64,000 nucleotides of DNA from assembly GCF_022014595.1 (NCBI RefSeq), contig NZ_CP091740.1:2158200-2222199 (forward strand). Reading direction: 5' to 3'. The stretch's first letter is position 1. Every line of letters starts with the position of its first letter. The notes beneath the pieces are model-generated. The model was not told the origin of the DNA and did not search any database. It saw only the letters and a list, made by a program, of their open reading frames with translations. The position numbers were made by a program, and so were the translations under genes. The stretch comes from Solitalea lacus. GTDB lineage: Bacteria > Bacteroidota > Bacteroidia > Sphingobacteriales > Sphingobacteriaceae. Shown here one piece after another: positions 50,112 to 59,446 of this stretch.

Positions 50112-50699
50112 CTATTTATGTCTTTTTTCCAGATTTTGGGCAATGTCTTTCAACGAGAAGCCTTTTTCGCGTAATAAAACTATTAAATGAAACACAAGGT
50201 CAGAAGCTTCGTTGATAAAATCTTCAGGGGTTTCGTTTAATGCCGCTATTACGGTTTCAACGCCTTCTTCACCAACTTTTTGGGCAATCTTATTAAGCCC
50301 TTTCTGACGAAGTTTATTGACATATGAACCTTCTATTGGATTTTCAAAACGATCATTTACTATATTTTCTAACTCAAAAATGAAGTTTTGATTGTATTCA
50401 GTGAAAAAGCAGCTGCGAGAACCGGTATGACAGGTAGGTCCAACAGGGTTGGCTTTAATTAAAATGGTGTCGTTGTCACAATCCTCAAAAATGCTTACTA
50501 CGTTTAGAAAGTTTCCGCTCTCTTCACCTTTAGTCCAAAGCCGGTTTTTTGAACGGGAGAAAAAAGTTACTTTGTTTTCGGCCTTAGTTTTTTCATAAGC
50601 TTCGGCGTTCATGTAGCCAAGCATTAACACTTCCAATGTTTGGTTATCCTGAATAACTGCCGGAACCAATCCGTTTATATCTTTTGAAAAGTCGATCAT
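50112..50699 (-). CDS. hisIE: HisIE: phosphoribosyl-AMP cyclohydrolase / phosphoribosyl-ATP pyrophosphatase
   Basis: A 195-residue bifunctional enzyme for steps 2 and 3 of histidine synthesis. The HisI part (residues 1-110) has MLGYMNAEAYEKT, FFSRSKNRLWTKGE and the zinc motif GPTCHTGSRSCFF. The HisE part includes KVGEEGVETVIAALNE and FINEASDLVFHLIVLL. The order I-E is normal for the fusion. The start MIDFSKDI at 50699 is chosen, since four extra residues to 50711 precede without similarity. It ends the his operon. Confidence 0.95.
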   Translation of the reverse strand: MIDFSKDINGLVPAVIQDNQTLEVLMLGYMNAEAYEKTKAENKVTFFSRSKNRLWTKGEESGNFLNVVSIFEDCDNDTILIKANPVGPTCHTGSRSCFFTEYNQNFIFELENIVNDRFENPIEGSYVNKLRQKGLNKIAQKVGEEGVETVIAALNETPEDFINEASDLVFHLIVLLREKGFSLKDIAQNLEKRHK

Positions 50700-50784
50700 A
50701 TATCCCTCCAACTCCCTTAAGGGAGTTTACATACTAAATTTAATTCGTTTGTTTCTTTCTTCTATTGGATGATACCAGAGAGCA

Positions 50785-51597
50785 CTATCTAACTGTTATG
50801 CCCTGTTTTCTTAATTCTGCTTTTAAATCAGGAATTAAGATTTCACCGTAATGAAAAACGGAAGCGGCCAAGGCAGCATCAACATTGGTTTTTAAAAATA
50901 CTTCAGCAAAATGAGCCATATTTCCGGCTCCGCCAGAAGCTATTAAAGGGATTTTCAACCATTGGTTAATTTCACCAAGCAGCTCACAGTCAAAGCCGTT
51001 CTTGGTGCCATCATGATCCATGCTGGTGAGTAAAATTTCACCGGCTCCGCGGTCTTGTGCTTCTTTTATCCAATTGTTGGTAATAAGCTCTGTGGGAAGC
51101 CTTCCGCCGTTCAAATGAACAATATGTCCTTCTGGCAATCGCTTAGTATCAACAGCTACTACTATAAACTGGCTGCCGAAATTATCTGCAAATGCATTTA
51201 TTAAATCAGGGTTACGAACTGCTGCAGAATTAATCGAAACCTTATCTGCTCCTGCATTTAACAAAACGTCCGCATCATTTATTTCATTAATGCCTCCGCC
51301 AATAGTGAAAGGAATATTGATGTTTTGGGCGATATTTTTTACCAGCTCCACCAATGTTTTACGTTTTTCATGTGTGGCGGTAATGTCTAAGAAAACCAAT
51401 TCGTCAGCTCCTTGCTCAGCATATTGAATGGCCAGCTCCACAGGATCTCCGGCATCTTTTAGCTCTACAAAATTTACCCCTTTAACAGTACGTCCATCTT
51501 TAACATCAAGACAAGGGATAATGCGTTTGGCAAGTCCGCCTTGTTGTTTGTTAATGGAACTGTTTTGCGAATTAGTAAGGATTGTATCTGTATTCAA
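50785..51597 (-). CDS. hisF: Imidazole glycerol-phosphate synthase cyclase HisF
   Basis: A 270-residue TIM barrel. The family start [22 protein letters not shown] begins at residue 23, so 22 extra residues (a polar Asn/Ser/Gln-rich tail) precede it. Catalytic Asp residues lie in PCLDVKDG and in [23 protein letters not shown] is the C-terminal phosphate-binding part. With HisH it forms IGP and AICAR from PRFAR. No ATG, GTG or TTG occurs immediately at the family start, so the extension seems real. hisIE follows. Confidence 0.95.
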
Positions 51598-51625
51598 GTT
51601 TAGTACTTTTTAAAATTTTTAGTGT

Positions 51626-52375
51626 TTACAGGGCTACTAATGATTGCAAATTCCATTGCTTGATTTCATCCACGCTTATTTTGCCTTCATAAATAGCTTT
51701 GCCAACCACAGCCGATTCACATTTAATTTCTTTTAGTGCATTTAAATCAGCAATTGAACTTACACCCCCGGAAGCGATCAGTTTGATAAATGGTTTATGA
51801 TCAAGAAGTTTTTTGTAAAGATCAACCCCACTGCCAGTCAGTTTTCCATCTTTGGCAATATCAGTGCAAAGGAAGCGGAAGAAACCAAGATTCGTACATC
51901 TGTCAATGTAGTCCATCAGCTTAACAGGTGAGGATTCCATCCACCCCGAATATTTTATTACTTCATCCAACACGTCAATCGCTACAACCACCTGATCTGA
52001 GCATTGATACTGATCGCAAACTTCTTTACTTAAGTTTTCTAAAAAAGTTGGATCTGTAATAGCCTGTGTTCCTACAATTACACGGTGAAAACCAATGGTA
52101 AGTAACTCTTTTACTTTATCAATACTTCTTACACCACCACCATATTGCACTTTAATGTTATATTTTTTGATAGCGTTTAGTACATATTGCTGATTTGTAA
52201 AGTCTCCTTTTGCTCCATTTAAATCAATAATATGGACGAATTGAGTGCCGGCAGAAATATATTTATCAAGCATTTCTTCTAGGCTTACATCATAAACAGT
52301 CTTTTCGTTGTATTTACCCTCACGTAAACGAACAACTTTTTTGTCCAAAATATCAATAGCAGGAATTACGTACAT
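51626..52375 (-). CDS. hisA: ProFAR isomerase HisA
   Basis: A 249-residue TIM barrel, IDILDKKVVRLREGKYN at the N-terminus with the catalytic Asp, VQYGGGVRSI, VVAIDVLDE, TDIAKDGKLTGSGVDLYKKL with the second catalytic Asp, and IASGGVSSIADLNAL. It converts ProFAR to PRFAR, step 4 of the pathway, and matches HisA length. It lies between hisH and hisF in the minus-strand operon. Confidence 0.95.
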   Translation of the reverse strand: MYVIPAIDILDKKVVRLREGKYNEKTVYDVSLEEMLDKYISAGTQFVHIIDLNGAKGDFTNQQYVLNAIKKYNIKVQYGGGVRSIDKVKELLTIGFHRVIVGTQAITDPTFLENLSKEVCDQYQCSDQVVVAIDVLDEVIKYSGWMESSPVKLMDYIDRCTNLGFFRFLCTDIAKDGKLTGSGVDLYKKLLDHKPFIKLIASGGVSSIADLNALKEIKCESAVVGKAIYEGKISVDEIKQWNLQSLVAL

Positions 52376-52412
52376 TTTAAAAGTTTTAGTGTGTTGAGTA
52401 TCTCTGGGTTTA

Positions 52413-53000
52413 TTATAATTCTGAGAAATTCTTTAATAATTGCTCTCCCGTCTTCCCCGATTTTTCAGGGTGAAACTGAACCCCAAAATAATTATTTTTT
52501 TGAATGGAAGAAGCGTAAGTTAAACCGTAATTGGTTGTAGCTAAGCTATATTGTTCTGTATGCTCCAAATAATAAGAATGAACAAAATAGAAATAACTAT
52601 CAGGTTCAATTCCTTTAAACAGGGTGTTGTTATTTAATGCATGGACTTTATTCCATCCCATGTGTGGGATTTTTAAATCTTCAGCAGTAAATCGCAAGGT
52701 TTTAATTGGAATAAGGTCAAGCAAATCGGTGTTACCTTCTTCTGAAAACGATGAAAGTAATTGCATTCCCAAACAAATTCCCAAAACAGGTTTTGAAGTT
52801 TGTTTAATTAATGGAACCAAACCGGTGGCCGTTAACTGTTTCATGGCTGGAGTTGCATGTCCTACACCTGGTATTATATAACGCTCGCAGCCATCAAAAT
52901 CTGATACTTTATTTATTATTTTGTGCTTGATATTCAATCGGTTTAGAGCACTTTTTAGCGAAAAGATATTTCCGGCACCGTAGTTTATTACACCTATCAT
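52413..53000 (-). CDS. hisH: Imidazole glycerol-phosphate synthase amidotransferase HisH
   Basis: A 195-residue class I amidotransferase with catalytic triad Cys76 in LGICLGMQ, and His and Glu in GVQFHPEKS. It supplies ammonia from glutamine to HisF. The start is fixed by IGVINYGAGN, the family N-terminus. The ATG overlaps the hisB stop by one base (TAATG). Confidence 0.95.
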   Translation of the reverse strand: MIGVINYGAGNIFSLKSALNRLNIKHKIINKVSDFDGCERYIIPGVGHATPAMKQLTATGLVPLIKQTSKPVLGICLGMQLLSSFSEEGNTDLLDLIPIKTLRFTAEDLKIPHMGWNKVHALNNNTLFKGIEPDSYFYFVHSYYLEHTEQYSLATTNYGLTYASSIQKNNYFGVQFHPEKSGKTGEQLLKNFSEL

Positions 53001-54136
53001 TATAATACTCCTTTTGTACTTGGAAGAACCAGTTTTTCAACATCACGCTTAACGGCCATTTTTATTGCTTTGGCAAAGGCTTTGAATATAGCTTCAATTT
53101 TATGATGTTCGTTTAAGCCTTCCGCTCTGATGTTTAAATTGCTGTGTGAAGCATCAGAAAACGATTTAAAGAAATGGAAGAACATTTCTGTAGGCATTTC
53201 ACCAACTTTTTCGCGTTTAAAATCTGCCTCCCAAACAATCCAATTACGCCCGCCAAAATCAATGGCCACCTGAGCCAAACAATCGTCCATCGGTAAACAA
53301 AAACCATAGCGTTCCAAGCCGCGTTTGTCAGTTAACACTTTTGCAAATGCTTCACCTAAGGCTATTCCAGTATCTTCAATAGTATGATGCTCATCAATAT
53401 GCAAATCGCCAATGGTTTTAATTTTTAAGTCAATAGCACCATGACGAGCGATTTGTTCCAGCATGTGATCAAAAAAATGCAATCCGGTAGAAATGTCTGC
53501 TTTGCCGGTTCCGTCAATATTGAGTTCAATTTCAATATCTGTTTCTTTGGTTTTTCGTTCATGCTTAACAGTTCGTTGACCTAGTTTTAAAAAAGAATAG
53601 ATTTTGGCCCAATCTGTAGTTTCTAATGCAATGAACTCTTTCAGTTCCTCGGCTTTTTCATAAATTTCTCCATGCCCAAGACCTCTGTCTTCATTTAACC
53701 AAATAGCCTTTGCGCCTAAGTTTTTTGCAAGCAGAACATCAGTAATTCTATCGCCTAACACAAATGAATTAGCTAAATCATATTTTTCCTGATCAAAAAA
53801 CTCTGTTAGCAAGCCAGTATTTGGTTTCCTGGTTAGCGCATTGTCTTTGGGGAATGTTCTGTCAATATAAACTCCGTTAAACTTTACACCCTCATTTTCA
53901 AACGCTTTGATAATGAAATTTTGAATAGGCCAGAATATTTCTTCCGGAAGCGAGGCTGTGCCAAGTCCGTCCTGATTAGTAACAATTACTAATTCAAAAT
54001 CAAGCTCACGGGCAATTTTTCCCATATATTCAAATACTTTCGGGTAAAATTCGAGCTTTTCAAAGCTATCAACTTGTTCGTCCTCAGGTTCTAAAACTAA
54101 AGTTCCGTCTCTATCTATGAATAATACTTTTTTCAT
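53000..54136 (-). CDS. hisB: HisB bifunctional: histidinol-phosphatase / imidazole glycerol-phosphate dehydratase
   Basis: A 378-residue fusion. Residues 1-165 are a HAD phosphatase (FIDRDGTLV with Asp8/Asp10, [18 protein letters not shown]). Residues 185-378 are the IGPD domain with metal-binding His clusters [32 protein letters not shown] and [17 protein letters not shown]. It carries out dehydration to imidazole acetol-phosphate and the phosphatase step. Fused HisB is the rule in Bacteroidetes and enterobacteria. Confidence 0.95.
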
Positions 54137-54168
54137 TTATTGTTTAAGGCTGAATAGGTTTAAACTTG

Positions 54169-55224
54169 CTATATCACAAATTCTTTAATCGTTTTTATTA
54201 ATGTTTCGTTTTCTGAAGGAGTTCCAATGGTTATTCGCAAACTGTCTTCACATAAAACAACTTTAGAACGATTTCTTACAATAATTCCCTTGTCAACTAA
54301 AAAATCGTATAGATAATCAGCATATTTTATTTTAGCTAAAAGGAAATTAGCATCTGATGGATATACTTTTTCTACAATGGAAATTTCGGCCAACTGATTA
54401 GCAAGTTTGGTACGTTCCTGAACAGTTTCTTTTATCCAAACATTAACCTGTTCAATATTATTTAAGGCCTCCATTGCTAATTCTTGTGTTGCCTGGCTAA
54501 TGTTGTAAGGAGGCTTTACTTTGTTATATACATCGATAATATCTTCGCAAGCGAATGCCATTCCTATTCTCAAGGCTGCTAATCCCCATGCTTTAGATAA
54601 GGTTTGTAGTACTACAAGATTAGAGTATTCGGTTAATTCCTGAATAAATGTTTTTTGACGGGAGAAATTAATATACGCTTCGTCAATTACCACAATTCCT
54701 TGAAAGTTACTTAGCACAGTTTCAATATCCTGACGGTCTATTGAATTTCCGGTTGGATTGTTGGGTGAGCATATGAAAATCATTTTAGTATTTTGATCAA
54801 TTGCTTCTGCAATTCCTTCCAAATCCAACTGAAAGTTTTCACACAGTTTCACTTTTCTTATCTCGACATCGTTGATGTTTGCCGAAACTTCGTACATACC
54901 ATAAGTTGGCGGTACAATAATTACATTATCAACGCCAGGGTTACAAAATGCCCTGAAGAGAATATCAATAGCCTCATCAGAACCATTCCCAATAAAAATG
55001 TTTTGGGGGGGGACGCCTTTAATAGTGCTGATTTTCTCTTTCAATTTCCATTGCAGAGGATCAGGATAGCGGTTATATGCAGTTGGTAGCGGAGATCCAA
55101 AGCTGTTTTCGTTCGCATCAAGATAAATACTTGCTTCGCCACTAAACTCATCGCGTGCTGAAGAGTAGGGAGTAAGCTTTTTTATGTTTTCTCGTAATAG
55201 CGAGTTGATATCGATTGTTGTCAT
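54169..55224 (-). CDS. hisC: Histidinol-phosphate aminotransferase HisC
   Basis: A 351-residue PLP enzyme. YLDANENSFGSPLP and RYPDP form the N-terminal signature, GNGSDEAIDIL binds the cofactor phosphate, CSPNNPTGN contacts PLP, and Lys211 in LSKAWGLAALRIG forms the aldimine. It converts imidazole acetol-phosphate to histidinol-phosphate. It is placed between hisD and hisB, with a 32-base gap to hisB. Confidence 0.95.
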   Translation of the reverse strand: MTTIDINSLLRENIKKLTPYSSARDEFSGEASIYLDANENSFGSPLPTAYNRYPDPLQWKLKEKISTIKGVPPQNIFIGNGSDEAIDILFRAFCNPGVDNVIIVPPTYGMYEVSANINDVEIRKVKLCENFQLDLEGIAEAIDQNTKMIFICSPNNPTGNSIDRQDIETVLSNFQGIVVIDEAYINFSRQKTFIQELTEYSNLVVLQTLSKAWGLAALRIGMAFACEDIIDVYNKVKPPYNISQATQELAMEALNNIEQVNVWIKETVQERTKLANQLAEISIVEKVYPSDANFLLAKIKYADYLYDFLVDKGIIVRNRSKVVLCEDSLRITIGTPSENETLIKTIKEFVI

Positions 55225-55258
55225 CTTTTTTAAGTGAGCCTTAAGAGCGTTAATATGT

Positions 55259-56551
55259 TTATACTTCCTTCATTCTAACAGTTACTGCATTGGCATGAGC
55301 TTGAAGACCTTCCAATTCTGCTAAAACTTCTACTGTCGGGCCAAGGTTTTTAATTCCGGCCTTTGAAATATGTTGAAACGTTATTTTCTTGACAAAGCTA
55401 TCAACCGAAACTCCTGAGTAACTTCGAGCATAACCTGAAGTAGGTAAAGTATGATTGGTTCCCGAAGCGTAATCTCCTGCAGATTCCGGGGTTAAATGCC
55501 CAAGAAATACTGAACCAGCATTAATAATTTCAGGAATCAACTGTTCGTAATTATCAACTTCTAAAATTAAGTGTTCAGGTGCATAAGCATTGCTAAATAG
55601 CATGGCTTGTTGCAAGTCGGTTGTTAAAACTGCGTAAGAATTTTCAATAGCTTTTATGGCTATTTCCTTACGTGGTAAGATATTAAGTTGTTTTTGAAGT
55701 TCTTTGTTTACCTTTTCAAGTAAAGTTTCCGAATTGCAAACCAAAACTGCTTGACTGTCAGTACCATGTTCAGCCTGCGCTAACAGATCGGCTGCAACAT
55801 AGGCTGGAATAGCGCTGTCGTCGGCAATAACCAATACCTCTGAAGGCCCCGCCGGCATGTCAATAGCCGTATTAGTGTTACTTTGGATTATGGTTTTTGC
55901 CTTGGTAACATATTGGTTCCCAGGTCCGAAAATTTTGTCAACTTTCGGAATACTTTCCGTTCCATAAGCCATGGCCGCAATAGCCTGAGCTCCTCCGGTT
56001 AAGTAAATTCGCTTAACACCTAATAATAGAGCACAATAAGCAATATACCCATTAACGGAACCATTTTTTTGAGGTGGAGAACAAACTATGATTTCTTTGC
56101 AACCTGCAATTTTAGCCGGCACACCAAGCATTAAGAAGGTACTTGGTAATACTGCCGAGCCCCCCGGAACATAAAGACCCACTCGTTCAATTGCTCGCAG
56201 TTCACGCCAACAGGTTACGCCTGTAGTTGTTTCAACTTTGTTTTCCGTTTTTAATTGTTCAAGGTGAAACTTGTGAATATTATAGAAGGCCTTTTCAAGT
56301 GCTTTTTGTTCGATTTCGTCAATTTGCCCGGCAAGCTCTTCTATTTCATCAAACTCTATAAACAGTTTACTGAGTTTTACTTTATCAAACTGCTCTGAAA
56401 ACTGAAACAAAGCTTTATCTCCATCAACTTTAACCTGGTTGATAATGGCTTCCACTGAATTGCCAATTTCATTTGTGGTATCAGCATTACGAGTAATAAG
56501 TTGCTGAAGTTGCTGATTGCTTAATTCGTTATAATTATACTTTTTTAGCAT
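55259..56551 (-). CDS. hisD: Histidinol dehydrogenase HisD
   Basis: A 430-residue zinc enzyme for the final two oxidations to histidine. Signatures: YVPGGSAVLPSTFLM, IFGPGNQYVTKAK, DMPAGPSEVLVIAD, LLAQAEHGTDSQAVLV with catalytic residues, ANAPEHL-type sequence (NAYAPEHLIL), and the C-terminal YASGTNHTLPTSGYAR. It is full length with no lesions. It starts 53 bases after hisG. Confidence 0.96.
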   Translation of the reverse strand: MLKKYNYNELSNQQLQQLITRNADTTNEIGNSVEAIINQVKVDGDKALFQFSEQFDKVKLSKLFIEFDEIEELAGQIDEIEQKALEKAFYNIHKFHLEQLKTENKVETTTGVTCWRELRAIERVGLYVPGGSAVLPSTFLMLGVPAKIAGCKEIIVCSPPQKNGSVNGYIAYCALLLGVKRIYLTGGAQAIAAMAYGTESIPKVDKIFGPGNQYVTKAKTIIQSNTNTAIDMPAGPSEVLVIADDSAIPAYVAADLLAQAEHGTDSQAVLVCNSETLLEKVNKELQKQLNILPRKEIAIKAIENSYAVLTTDLQQAMLFSNAYAPEHLILEVDNYEQLIPEIINAGSVFLGHLTPESAGDYASGTNHTLPTSGYARSYSGVSVDSFVKKITFQHISKAGIKNLGPTVEVLAELEGLQAHANAVTVRMKEV

Positions 56552-56604: not shown

Positions 56605-57456
56605 TTACAAGATTATTTTCTCTATTGGTAAAACCACAATGCCTTCAGCTCCTGTAGATTTTAAGCGGTTAATTTTATCCCAAAAATCTTTTTCCGGAAT
56701 TACAGTATGAACAGCAACCCAGTTTTCAGTGGCTAACGGCATAACTGTAGGGCTTTTAATACCTGGTAAAAGCTCTAAAACTCCAGGGAGGTTTTCTTTA
56801 GACACGTTCATTACCACATATTTGGTTTGCTCTGCACGTAGTACACTTTGTATGCGTTGCAATAACTCATTAACAATTGGATTTTTGGCAATTCCATTTT
56901 TACCAATCAAAACGGCTTCCGAGCGCATTACTTCAGCAAATGGCTTTAACCCATTGCTTTTCAATGTACCACCTGTTGAAACAATATCAAAAATAGCATC
57001 ACTTAAGCCTAAATTTGTTGAAATTTCAACAGAGCCACTGATTTCTCTAATTTCTGCCGAAATGTTGTTTTCTTGAAGGAATTTATCCAGAATGACCGGG
57101 TAGGAGGTGGCAATAGATTTGCCATTAAGGTCACTCAGATTCTGAATGTCACTGTTGTTAGCGATGGCCAGTTTTAGGCTGCATTTACCGAAACCTAATT
57201 TTTGAAGATAAGTTACATCAACTTGTTTTTCAGCAATAACATTTTCTCCTACTATTCCTAAGTCAGCTATACCGTCTTGTACATATTCCGGGATATCATC
57301 ATCCCTCAGGAACAAAATTTCAAGTGGAAAATTGTTAACAGGCGATATCAATGAGCTCTTATAATTCTCAAAGCTTAAGCCGCTTTTCTTGAGTAAATCA
57401 ACGGACTTTTCGTTTAGTCGGCCTGATTTCTGAATTGCTATTTTTATAGTTTTCAT
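56605..57456 (-). CDS. hisG: ATP phosphoribosyltransferase HisG (long form)
   Basis: A 283-residue enzyme for the first, feedback-regulated step. TIKIAIQKSGRLNEKSVDLLKKSG starts the family sequence, and the PRPP loop region ISGSVEISTNLGLSDAIFDIVSTGGTLKSNGL is clear. The C-terminal regulatory domain (from about residue 208; PGVLELLPGIKSPTVMPL, WVAVHTVIPEKDFWDKINRLKSTGAEGIVVLP) makes it HisG-L, independent of HisZ. I use the ATG at 57456, as the frame upstream to 57507 lies in the attenuator region. Confidence 0.95.
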   Translation of the reverse strand: MKTIKIAIQKSGRLNEKSVDLLKKSGLSFENYKSSLISPVNNFPLEILFLRDDDIPEYVQDGIADLGIVGENVIAEKQVDVTYLQKLGFGKCSLKLAIANNSDIQNLSDLNGKSIATSYPVILDKFLQENNISAEIREISGSVEISTNLGLSDAIFDIVSTGGTLKSNGLKPFAEVMRSEAVLIGKNGIAKNPIVNELLQRIQSVLRAEQTKYVVMNVSKENLPGVLELLPGIKSPTVMPLATENWVAVHTVIPEKDFWDKINRLKSTGAEGIVVLPIEKIIL

Positions 57457-57573
57457 AATTTTCGTAGTGGGTAGCATACAAAAAAGCCTTAATAATGCCT
57501 TTTGCAAGCTAACCGCAGTTTTATAAAGAAAGTGTGATTTAAAATTTTGGATTGATACTAAAACTCGCTGCGA
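57457..57573 (-). promoter_or_regulatory. Attenuator region between leader peptide and hisG
   Basis: On the minus strand the leader stop is followed by a segment (57558-57572) containing AGTTTTA. It can pair with TAAAACT in the segment 57513-57523, and CGC with GCG extends the stem across a 4-base bulge. Further down, CAAAAG with CTTTT and a run of six T (57480-57485) form a weak terminator-like end before hisG. This is the layout of ribosome-controlled attenuation, though the terminator hairpin is imperfect by eye. Confidence 0.55.
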
Positions 57574-57645
57574 TTAGGCACAATGATGATGATGCCCATG
57601 ATGATGGGTACGATGATGCAGCGCGATATGTTTTTTAGTTATCAT
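57574..57645 (-). CDS. hisL: His operon leader peptide (histidine-rich)
   Basis: A 23-codon frame on the minus strand, too short for normal gene calling: Met-Ile-Thr-Lys-Lys-His, then Ile-Ala-Leu-His-His-Arg-Thr, His-His-His-Gly, four His, Cys-Ala and stop. Ten of 23 residues are His, seven of them within the last nine sense codons before Cys-Ala. The ATG at 57645 lies 190 bases before the hisG ATG. Ribosome stalling at the His codons during histidyl-tRNA shortage would shift folding of the following RNA and let transcription enter hisG. This matches enterobacterial HisL in concept and composition. Confidence 0.88.
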   Translation of the reverse strand: MITKKHIALHHRTHHHGHHHHCA

Positions 57646-57862
57646 TAACACTTTTGGAAGTGGATGCACAAAGAAAAGATATACCCTACAAAAAAGCAAG
57701 ACTAATTTTAAAAAAAAATAAAAATACAAAACCAGTTAAATTGGGAATTGTTAAGGAAAATTGAAGACAGACGGGAAATATAACGTAATCATGTTGATGA
57801 ATATTAAATAGTTATATTTGAAACGTTTCGTACGTCTGTCTTTCTGTTTAATTGTTTATTAT
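57646..57862. other. Divergent promoter region between the his operon and the L,D-transpeptidase
   Basis: Promoters for the his leader (minus) and L,D-transpeptidase (plus) must both lie here. It is A/T-rich and contains the plus-strand box TATATTTG at 57813-57820. On the minus strand a TATATCTTTTC stretch is a weaker candidate -7 region for the his operon. Confidence 0.45.
57813..57820 (+). promoter_or_regulatory. TAnnTTTG -7 box of the L,D-transpeptidase gene
   Basis: TATATTTG is an exact consensus match, with TTG at 57794-57796 as a possible -33 core. It overlaps the first TTG (57818) of the open frame, which argues that translation begins further downstream. Confidence 0.5.
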
Positions 57863-59446
57863 TTGAAAATTTTAGTTAAATACTTTAACTATTCGTTTAG
57901 GATAGTTATCGTGCTTCTTTTTGTAAATGGAATTACAGGCTGCGGTCCTAAGCCTTCAGCAACGGGAATCTATTTGTCGGAGTTATTTAAGGATAAGAAA
58001 TTTAAAAAGTTTGATACAGCAGCTTTCAATGATACATTGCGCAAAGAACTACGATATCAAAGGAAGAATCTTGTAAATTATAAGTTGCTCTCAACCTTTT
58101 TTAACGAACAGGCAAAAAGTGATACAGCGTGGTTTATTGCATTGATTAATAATAATCAGCTTGATACGCTCCTTCATTTTGTTAATAAAGCAAATGAACA
58201 TGGCTTGTCTTCACAACTATTTTATCCTTCAAAAATTGATTCGTTAAAAAAACGTTTCTATCAAGGAAAGTTTGATTCATTACCTCAATTGTATACTTTG
58301 GTTGCTAAGCTTCAGATTTATACAGCTAATGCATTGGTTTCCTACTCCTCAAAGGTGAAATACGGTTGTGTAAACCCATCTAAAATTTACACCCGTTATT
58401 ACATTCCAGTAAAGCGTCCCACTGACTCAATATTGCTAAGTTTATTAAGAAGCCATGATTGGGGTAAAATATTAACAGATATTCAGCCTAAAAGAATTGA
58501 ATACCTTATTTTACAAAAGGCTTTGGATTCATGTACAAATTTGTATCTAAGAAAAAAGATACTTGTAAACATGGAACGATACAGATGGCAGATTCCATCG
58601 GACTCCAACCAGTATATTCAAGTTAATATTCCTGCATTTTCTTTAAAGATGGTTGATAGTGGGAAAACTGTTTTAACAATGGATGTTTGTGTGGGAGAAA
58701 AGCGTGTTGATGATTATGCAGCTAAAAAGGAGATTTATCTGAAATCGGGATTAATTGAAGATAAACCGAAGAATCATGAAACTCCTATCATGTATGGTTT
58801 AATAAATAATATTCAGTTAAACCCTAAATGGAATATTCCGAATTCAATAGCCCAAACGGAGTTGTTGGCCAAAATCCGTGCTAACCCATACTATTTGGTT
58901 AGAAGTGGTATCAGGGTTTATAACAAACAAGGACAAGCTGTTGATCCAACAGAAATTGATTGGGATAATGTTAATCCTAACAATATTCCTTATCGGTTTA
59001 AACAAGACCCTGGAGAAGGAAATGCTTTAGGAAAGTTTAAGTTTAACTTTTCTAATAAATCAAGTATCTATCTGCATGATACTCCTAATAAATCAGCATT
59101 TATGAAGCAAAACCGTGCAGTAAGTCATGGATGTATTCGTGTTGCCGATCCACTAAATCTGGCCCAGCACTTAGTGAAAAATGCACGCATGTTTGACGAT
59201 ATAAGAATGGAAACAGGTTATCCTCCGATTGATACCTTAAGAATGAAGCGGTTTCTTGAAAAACAGGAAATGCAATCTGCAAACGGCCGGCAAACCCGCT
59301 GGATGATATTAAATAATAAATGGCCTCTTTATATTGATTATTATACTTGCGTACCGCTTGATAATGGCGCTTTGAAACTATATGAAGATGTTTACGAGTA
59401 TGATGAAATTCTACTCGACTCGCTTAAAAGGTTTCTGAAAAAGTAA
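57863..59446 (+). CDS. Lipoprotein L,D-transpeptidase (YkuD/YcbB type)
   Basis: A protein of about 527 residues. The basic N-terminus, a hydrophobic segment and the lipobox ITGC (FVNGITGCGP) mark it as a lipoprotein. A long alpha-helical part precedes the YkuD catalytic domain in the C-terminal half: IQVNIPAFSLKMVDSGKTVL begins it, and the active-site motif AVSHGCIRVADP carries catalytic Cys and His. It forms 3-3 peptidoglycan cross-links or attaches lipoproteins. Size and layout resemble LdtD. The frame opens at the TTG at 57818, but the promoter box overlaps it, so the TTG at 57863 is preferred; no ATG suits. Confidence 0.88.
   Translation: MKILVKYFNYSFRIVIVLLFVNGITGCGPKPSATGIYLSELFKDKKFKKFDTAAFNDTLRKELRYQRKNLVNYKLLSTFFNEQAKSDTAWFIALINNNQLDTLLHFVNKANEHGLSSQLFYPSKIDSLKKRFYQGKFDSLPQLYTLVAKLQIYTANALVSYSSKVKYGCVNPSKIYTRYYIPVKRPTDSILLSLLRSHDWGKILTDIQPKRIEYLILQKALDSCTNLYLRKKILVNMERYRWQIPSDSNQYIQVNIPAFSLKMVDSGKTVLTMDVCVGEKRVDDYAAKKEIYLKSGLIEDKPKNHETPIMYGLINNIQLNPKWNIPNSIAQTELLAKIRANPYYLVRSGIRVYNKQGQAVDPTEIDWDNVNPNNIPYRFKQDPGEGNALGKFKFNFSNKSSIYLHDTPNKSAFMKQNRAVSHGCIRVADPLNLAQHLVKNARMFDDIRMETGYPPIDTLRMKRFLEKQEMQSANGRQTRWMILNNKWPLYIDYYTCVPLDNGALKLYEDVYEYDEILLDSLKRFLKK

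Follow-up and report, generated by a model that had tools for sequence, protein, structure and literature searches.

How might a short, histidine-rich reading frame directly upstream of a histidine biosynthetic operon control that operon when the RNA between the two carries no recognizable terminator? The question is raised by a locus of Solitalea lacus (Bacteroidota; Sphingobacteriaceae), analysed here within a window of 64,000 nucleotides (contig NZ_CP091740.1, positions 2,158,200 to 2,222,199 of the forward strand; coordinates below are those of the window). The his operon is complete in the window and reads hisG-hisD-hisC-hisB-hisH-hisA-hisF-hisIE on the minus strand, the genes being named by NCBIfam matches. 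The first gene, hisG (56605–57456; TIGR00070, 193.9 bits against a cut-off of 75.75), has an ATG start and is followed across 50112–56551 by hisD (55259–56551), hisC (54169–55224), hisB (53000–54136), hisH (52413–53000), hisA (51626–52375, where the best HisA model falls 3 bits below its cut-off), hisF (50785–51597) and hisIE (50112–50711). An L,D-transpeptidase-like gene, scoring below the model's cut-off, lies divergent from the operon at 57818–59446 on the plus strand.

The leader ORF runs on the minus strand from an ATG at 57645 to a TAA ending at 57574, and its 23 codons encode MITKKHIALHHRTHHHGHHHHCA, a peptide with ten His and one Cys. An earlier note made from the letters of this DNA had described a 23-codon frame with ten His codons before hisG, and its coordinates, length and His count are all reproduced. 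Nine of the His codons fall within 12 codons, and other stop-free 12-codon stretches, in all frames on both strands of the 64-kb window, contain at most five. The hisG ATG at 57456 lies 189 nt past the leader ATG, with a gap of 117 nt between leader end and hisG. No Rfam family, the His-leader and T-box families included, matched anywhere in the window at its gathering score. We designate the frame a hisL-like histidine leader on the basis of its translation and its conservation.

For the latter, 151 Sphingobacteriaceae genomes were searched, 133 of them with hisG, and a leader was defined as a short ORF with at least four His in 12 codons located no more than 450 nt upstream of hisG. A first scan detected leaders in 126 of the 133 genomes and a corrected finder in 127. 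Among 2660 dinucleotide shuffles of the 133 hisG upstream regions, 1.35% reach four His and none attains six, while the reverse strands of these regions yield one leader in 133. The 80 named loci, which overlap the family set, all carry a leader. Six family genomes lack a scoring leader: L140, L146 and L151 have degenerate versions with two or three His, and L156, L199 and L203 have no credible leader. In the genus Solitalea the leader is present in all four genomes, with synonymous CAT/CAC swaps at some His codons, and HisG identity is 93% between the window genome and two of its three relatives. At one conserved His position, CAC is used 56 times and CAT 47 times; the use of both codons at conserved positions is expected if the amino acid is what is selected. 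Four predictions were fixed before 60 unseen family genomes (genera g13, g14 and g16) were examined, and in this held-out set the leader is present in 60 of 60.

Beyond the family, 99 genomes had a hisG match, of which we used 56 ordinary ones and 7 with divergent HisG, setting aside 36 further genomes with divergent HisG (~30% identity). A His-rich ORF stands before hisG in 46 of these 63 genomes, compared with 1.0% of shuffles, and all seven divergent-HisG genomes are without a His leader. The earlier note had named, as one observation that would speak against it, the disappearance of the His run from close relatives; the leader is conserved far past the genus, and such loss is not what the relatives display. 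We consider it very likely that the locus carries a leader peptide that senses charged His-tRNA.

What the RNA downstream of the leader might do was examined through predicted folds. In the minimum-energy fold without a ribosome, region 1, comprising the leader start and early codons (57616–57644, minus strand), is predicted to pair with region 2, the 24 nt after the leader stop (57550–57573, minus strand), through 11 bp joining 57644–57633 to 57563–57553 and 8 bp joining 57623–57616 to 57574–57566. Region 2 may alternatively pair with region 3 (ATAAAACTGCGG, 57513–57524, minus strand): when the second His codon is masked as if occupied by a ribosome, 57568–57559 is predicted to pair with 57523–57515 in 9 bp with one bulged G. 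This stem lies inside the longer one (57558–57572 with 57513–57523) proposed by the earlier note, of which region 3 forms the 3' arm, and to that extent the proposal survives. The T6 run with which the note had the RNA end before hisG does exist, at 57485–57480. It lies ~30 nt beyond the stem, within the 3' arm of a second, pre-hisG hairpin (57470–57514, minus strand; 16 bp predicted), and is therefore not the tail of that stem. No U-tract follows the pre-hisG hairpin itself, and 13 nt separate it from the hisG ATG (14 nt in L002 and L004).

Comparison of the four Solitalea genomes reveals no difference in the leader stop codon or in the 24 nt that follow it. The outer stem of the pre-hisG hairpin occurs in three sequence types, GGUUAGC/GCUACC, GGUUGG/CCAACC and CGGUCGGC/GUCGCCG, the first and third with a bulged U, so that its predicted pairing is kept despite sequence change. 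L002 has a shorter version of the T6 run and L003 an interrupted one, and L004 has no such run in that place. A Solitalea switch based on competition between the 9-bp stem and the pre-hisG hairpin was considered and dropped, since no base is shared between them and both are present in the fold. Relative to mixtures of sequences from different genera, the Solitalea leader start pairs weakly with the RNA 10–60 nt past the leader stop (Z −0.2 to −1.2); with the pre-hisG segment, the window sequence gives Z −3.5 and the other three −0.1 to −0.9.

Outside Solitalea, a long-range interaction emerges. Duplex energies between leader segments were compared for cognate sequences and different-genus mixtures, in sets of 111 and 112 leaders from 17 genera, all non-Solitalea with leader stops at 40–95 nt. 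An unbiased scan of all segments (111 leaders) ranked two combinations highest, leader start with the pre-hisG segment and early codons with post-stop RNA. Each of the top six bin pairs connects these regions, and the remaining bin pairs range from −0.40 to +0.32. With wider windows, pairing of leader start and pre-hisG segment reached p ≤ 0.05 in 45 of 112 leaders (5.6 expected; mean Z −1.59), and mean Z was negative in 17 of 17 genera, below −1 in 12 and between −1 and 0 in the other five. Early codons with post-stop RNA gave 17 of 112 (mean Z −1.12). Controls were null: leader start with hisG coding sequence, 1/112; far upstream sequence with the pre-hisG segment, 2/112; leader 3' end with the pre-hisG segment, 1/112; families with terminators, 1/30; and trp leaders, 0/28. 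In 101 of 111 leaders the 5' arm of the helix includes the start codon of the leader, and the 3' arm has a median extent of −46 to −12 of hisG, ending short of the start codon. Among the held-out genomes, long-range pairing was found in 30 of 59, and in 3 of 59 with hisG coding sequence as control, with genus g13 weak (Z −0.52).

The arms vary in sequence. In genus g21 the helix occurs as GGCCAAA/UUUGGUC, GGCCAGU/ACUGGUC and GACCAGA/UCUGGUC, and one g14 member has the arms AAAAUGAAC/GUUCAUUUU. Two long-range pairs in g21 have changed on both sides, and one of the nine is broken in 8 of 12 rows. When the helix and two hairpins of g21 are taken jointly, the covariation score is matched by 1 of 500 shuffles, the number of pairs changed on both sides by 40 of 500, and the number of further pair types by 471 of 500. 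These formal counts are mixed and, on the whole, appear favourable to conserved pairing.

Several further features of these leaders were noted. After the leader stop, many non-Solitalea members (L016 and L024, for example) have a hairpin GTTTC-TACGT-GAAAC, whose GTTTC and GAAAC arms are invariant across the 13-sequence g21 alignment, a hint that they have a role besides pairing. In genus g18 (L140, L146 and L151), where the leader is reduced to two or three His codons, the long-range arms still match (GGUAAAAGAC/GUCUUUUACC in L140; GGUAAAAAAC/GUUUUUUACC in L151). The motif TANNTTTG, which we take to be the Bacteroidota −7 element, lies, by raw count, no more than 120 nt 5' of the leader in every one of the 111 non-Solitalea family leaders examined and in none of the four from Solitalea.

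Bacteroidota mostly do without Shine-Dalgarno pairing. In this family the hisG start codon goes with the distance to the leader. When the leader stop lies within 95 nt of hisG, the gene starts with TTG in 86 cases, GTG in 25 and ATG in one (n = 112); when it lies farther away, the start is ATG in 15 of 15 (Solitalea, g15 and part of g4), counts that are not phylogenetically independent. An in-frame ATG is available in 1 of the 112 near leaders, compared with 30/30 for trpE and 30/30 for ilvD. The held-out set repeats the pattern, with TTG or GTG in 59 of 59 near leaders (two with some in-frame ATG) and ATG behind the single distant one. Both states, near with TTG/GTG and distant with ATG, occur within genus g4. 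Its distant leaders (L028, L029, L030, L123, L144 and L162) have a far-off hisG with an ATG start, and in four of these six the long-range helix has stayed beside the leader while hisG has moved off. In Solitalea, hisG is ~50 nt farther from the leader than in near leaders and starts with AUG.

Rho-dependent termination between leader and hisG, set by stalling or release of the leader ribosome, is the main rival to a translational output, although we regard it as unlikely. It would make an intrinsic terminator unnecessary, and the gap behind near leaders is richer in C than in G (0.160 and 0.109); yet that gap is short (median 68 nt), and Rho would leave both the covarying helix and the UUG/GUG starts unexplained.

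A classical hisL-type attenuator would have an intrinsic terminator before hisG that consists of, or is governed by, the stem and the T6 run. The earlier note had favoured this reading, and the locus does offer a His leader, a T6 run and alternative pairings. Candidate terminators were given a score, d, by a d'Aubenton-Carafa-type formula that combines hairpin and T-tail and could overlook unusual terminators. The scored stretch began 45 nt upstream of the leader stop and ran to position +10 of hisG, in leaders with at least four His in 12 codons by the corrected finder (127 of 133 in the family, 48 of 63 in the phylum sample). E. coli hisL, like other enterobacterial hisL a short His-rich ORF right before hisG followed by alternative RNA pairings, served as positive control and has a strong intrinsic terminator (d 53.7). 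Such terminators also follow 30 of the 48 other Bacteroidota his leaders, and 6 of 32 convergent gene ends, from the window and the named loci, score as terminators. No shuffle scored above zero (0/254 for the family, 0/96 for other Bacteroidota).

In contrast to E. coli hisL, no leader among the 127 of the family scored above zero (best −9.2): neither the four from Solitalea (−45.3 in the window genome; −30.7, −54.8 and −58.2) nor the other 123. In the held-out genomes a terminator follows the leader in 0 of 60, and a terminator scan of the window lists none between leader and hisG. A terminator at the T6 run was rejected on the score of −45.3, on the position of the run inside a hairpin arm and on its not being kept in L002, L003 and L004.

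The decisive control comes from within the family. The trp leaders of Sphingobacteriaceae share with the his leaders a peptide rich in the operon's amino acid placed before the first gene, in the same genomes. They differ in having a GC hairpin and T-run, scoring above zero before trpE in 29 of 30 cases (all four Solitalea included), in showing no pairing between leader start and pre-gene segment (0/28) and in having an in-frame ATG (30/30). In the 28 genomes in which both trp and his leaders were scored, his terminators number zero. In the window genome a textbook trp attenuator lies upstream of trpE (L311, G000:C1:4275593), with leader MNKINSNKFAWWRCNN and a GC hairpin GCUUGUCGCACUGCGGCAAGC followed by T7. 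A further in-family control, ilvD, was uninformative, having no clear leader and terminators in 3 of 30. With these controls positive, the terminator-type attenuator of the earlier note is not supported at this locus, and a hisL-type mechanism is improbable.

Terminators in the phylum sample (leaders with at least four His) are distributed by family as follows: f2 2/2, f3 2/2, f4 8/8, f5 2/2, f8 1/3, f9 0/1, f14 11/11, f19 2/3, f22 1/1, f27 1/1 and f21 0/14. Family f4, which has His leaders, is presumably Flavobacteriaceae-like. The f21 leaders (L240–L242, L244, L245, L248, L250, L257, L260, L262, L264, L265, L268 and L231), often with ~10 His, lack the long-range helix as well, indicating that terminator loss does not require the helix. 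At several f21 loci a GTG start lies just behind a TAtcTTTG-like motif, and the leader ORF may be leaderless. An order-level draw aimed at dating terminator loss returned 201 genomes, all within Sphingobacteriaceae.

The output of the leader in Sphingobacteriaceae is thus likely to be something other than intrinsic termination, and the switch is seemingly thrown another way, perhaps at the start of hisG translation. The long-range helix could also act on RNA polymerase, through pausing or folding without a canonical terminator, its geometry permitting formation only once the pre-hisG segment has been transcribed. A strong U-tail follows the 3' arm in 0 of 111 leaders, and the UUG/GUG starts point toward translation, making this reading slightly less probable still than the hisL-type one. 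That the peptide itself is functional, for example as a metal-binding His/Cys peptide, is very improbable despite the ten His and one Cys of the window peptide, given that the non-His residues are highly variable, that the Cys is missing in many relatives and that a Trp-rich trp leader in the same family fits amino-acid sensing.

The reading we prefer, with a probability of about 0.5, is a His-tRNA-sensing leader that most likely acts on hisG translation. Ribosomes would translate the His-rich leader ORF and, when charged His-tRNA is scarce, stall at the His codons, so that the leader start and early codons stay unavailable to downstream RNA. With ample histidine, or with the leader unread, that RNA would fold back onto the leader. 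In most of the family, where the leader stop lies within 95 nt of hisG, the arms of the resulting helix would be the leader start region and the segment before the weak UUG or GUG start of hisG. Because the helix joins the leader start to the segment before this weak start, the likeliest consequence of fold-back would be reduced hisG translation, with the operon affected through coupling. We infer that ribosomes stall, which way the switch works and that translation is what it controls; this last step, for which the lack of a terminator argues together with the helix and the UUG/GUG starts, has about even odds.

The same logic probably applies in Solitalea, with an AUG start and a private hairpin 13–14 nt upstream of hisG. 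The model is weakest for this genus, in which an AUG-initiated hisG lies behind a hairpin that is variable yet predicted to stay paired. When a ribosome was masked at the first His codon in folds of 111 leaders, positions −35 to −8 of hisG were freed by 0.06 on average, becoming more than 0.1 freer in 30 leaders and changing as much in the opposite direction in none; positions −20 to +13 were not freed, and the four Solitalea leaders hardly changed. The effect is in the right direction but small, and we do not take these folds to prove that translation is occluded.

A comparative study of attenuators from 2004 reportedly mentions Bacteroidetes. The Bacteroid-trp element (Rfam RF01692) is listed for Bacteroidetes in a portion of PMC2864571. 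Passages of PMC9723704 give clues to leader-peptide attenuation upstream of amino-acid operons in Flavobacterium psychrophilum and describe an element 5' of hisG that is conserved within Flavobacteriaceae, so that the earlier note's remark that such leaders are rarely annotated in Bacteroidetes needs that qualifier. As those passages present it, the F. psychrophilum element shares phylum, operon and the leader-peptide idea with the system described here; the two differ in that f4 leaders with at least four His have terminators in all eight cases and those of Sphingobacteriaceae in none. Attenuators acting on translation, with structure at the ribosome-binding site replacing the terminator, are a stated variant in part of PMC9413887, and the proposed system would share with them structure near the first gene's start in place of a terminator.

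The nearest design is the actinobacterial LEU element, in which, according to passages of PMC1262725, the partner of the Shine-Dalgarno box is a run of Leu codons, a pseudoknot has been suggested, and altering the Leu codons is said to leave regulation unaffected. Those passages describe, as here, a leader ORF with a run of codons for the operon's amino acid and a base stem that extends to the next gene's ribosome-binding region, and they do not mention a terminator. The LEU element of these passages pairs through its Leu codons, whereas the Sphingobacteriaceae his leader would pair through its start region with the segment upstream of hisG. Further related work is found in parts of PMC8305728, PMC4833913, PMC2965389 and PMC10272879. 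A literature search, mostly without subscription journals, found neither a translational his leader attenuator in Bacteroidota nor any description of a terminator-less his leader in Sphingobacteriaceae.

We put at a little under even the chance that the family as a whole has converted an ancestral his attenuator, losing the terminator, keeping the His leader and acquiring a new helix and near-obligatory UUG/GUG starts tuned to the switch, while its trp attenuator is still terminator-based. Annotation is affected as well, with short His-rich ORFs before hisG in the majority (46/63) of the sampled non-family genomes. If the preferred reading is true, a single sensor, the His leader peptide, would have been rewired between outputs within one phylum, trp leaders from the same family would provide the internal control, and the system would offer a handle on the control of initiation by RNA structure and weak start codons in Bacteroidota.
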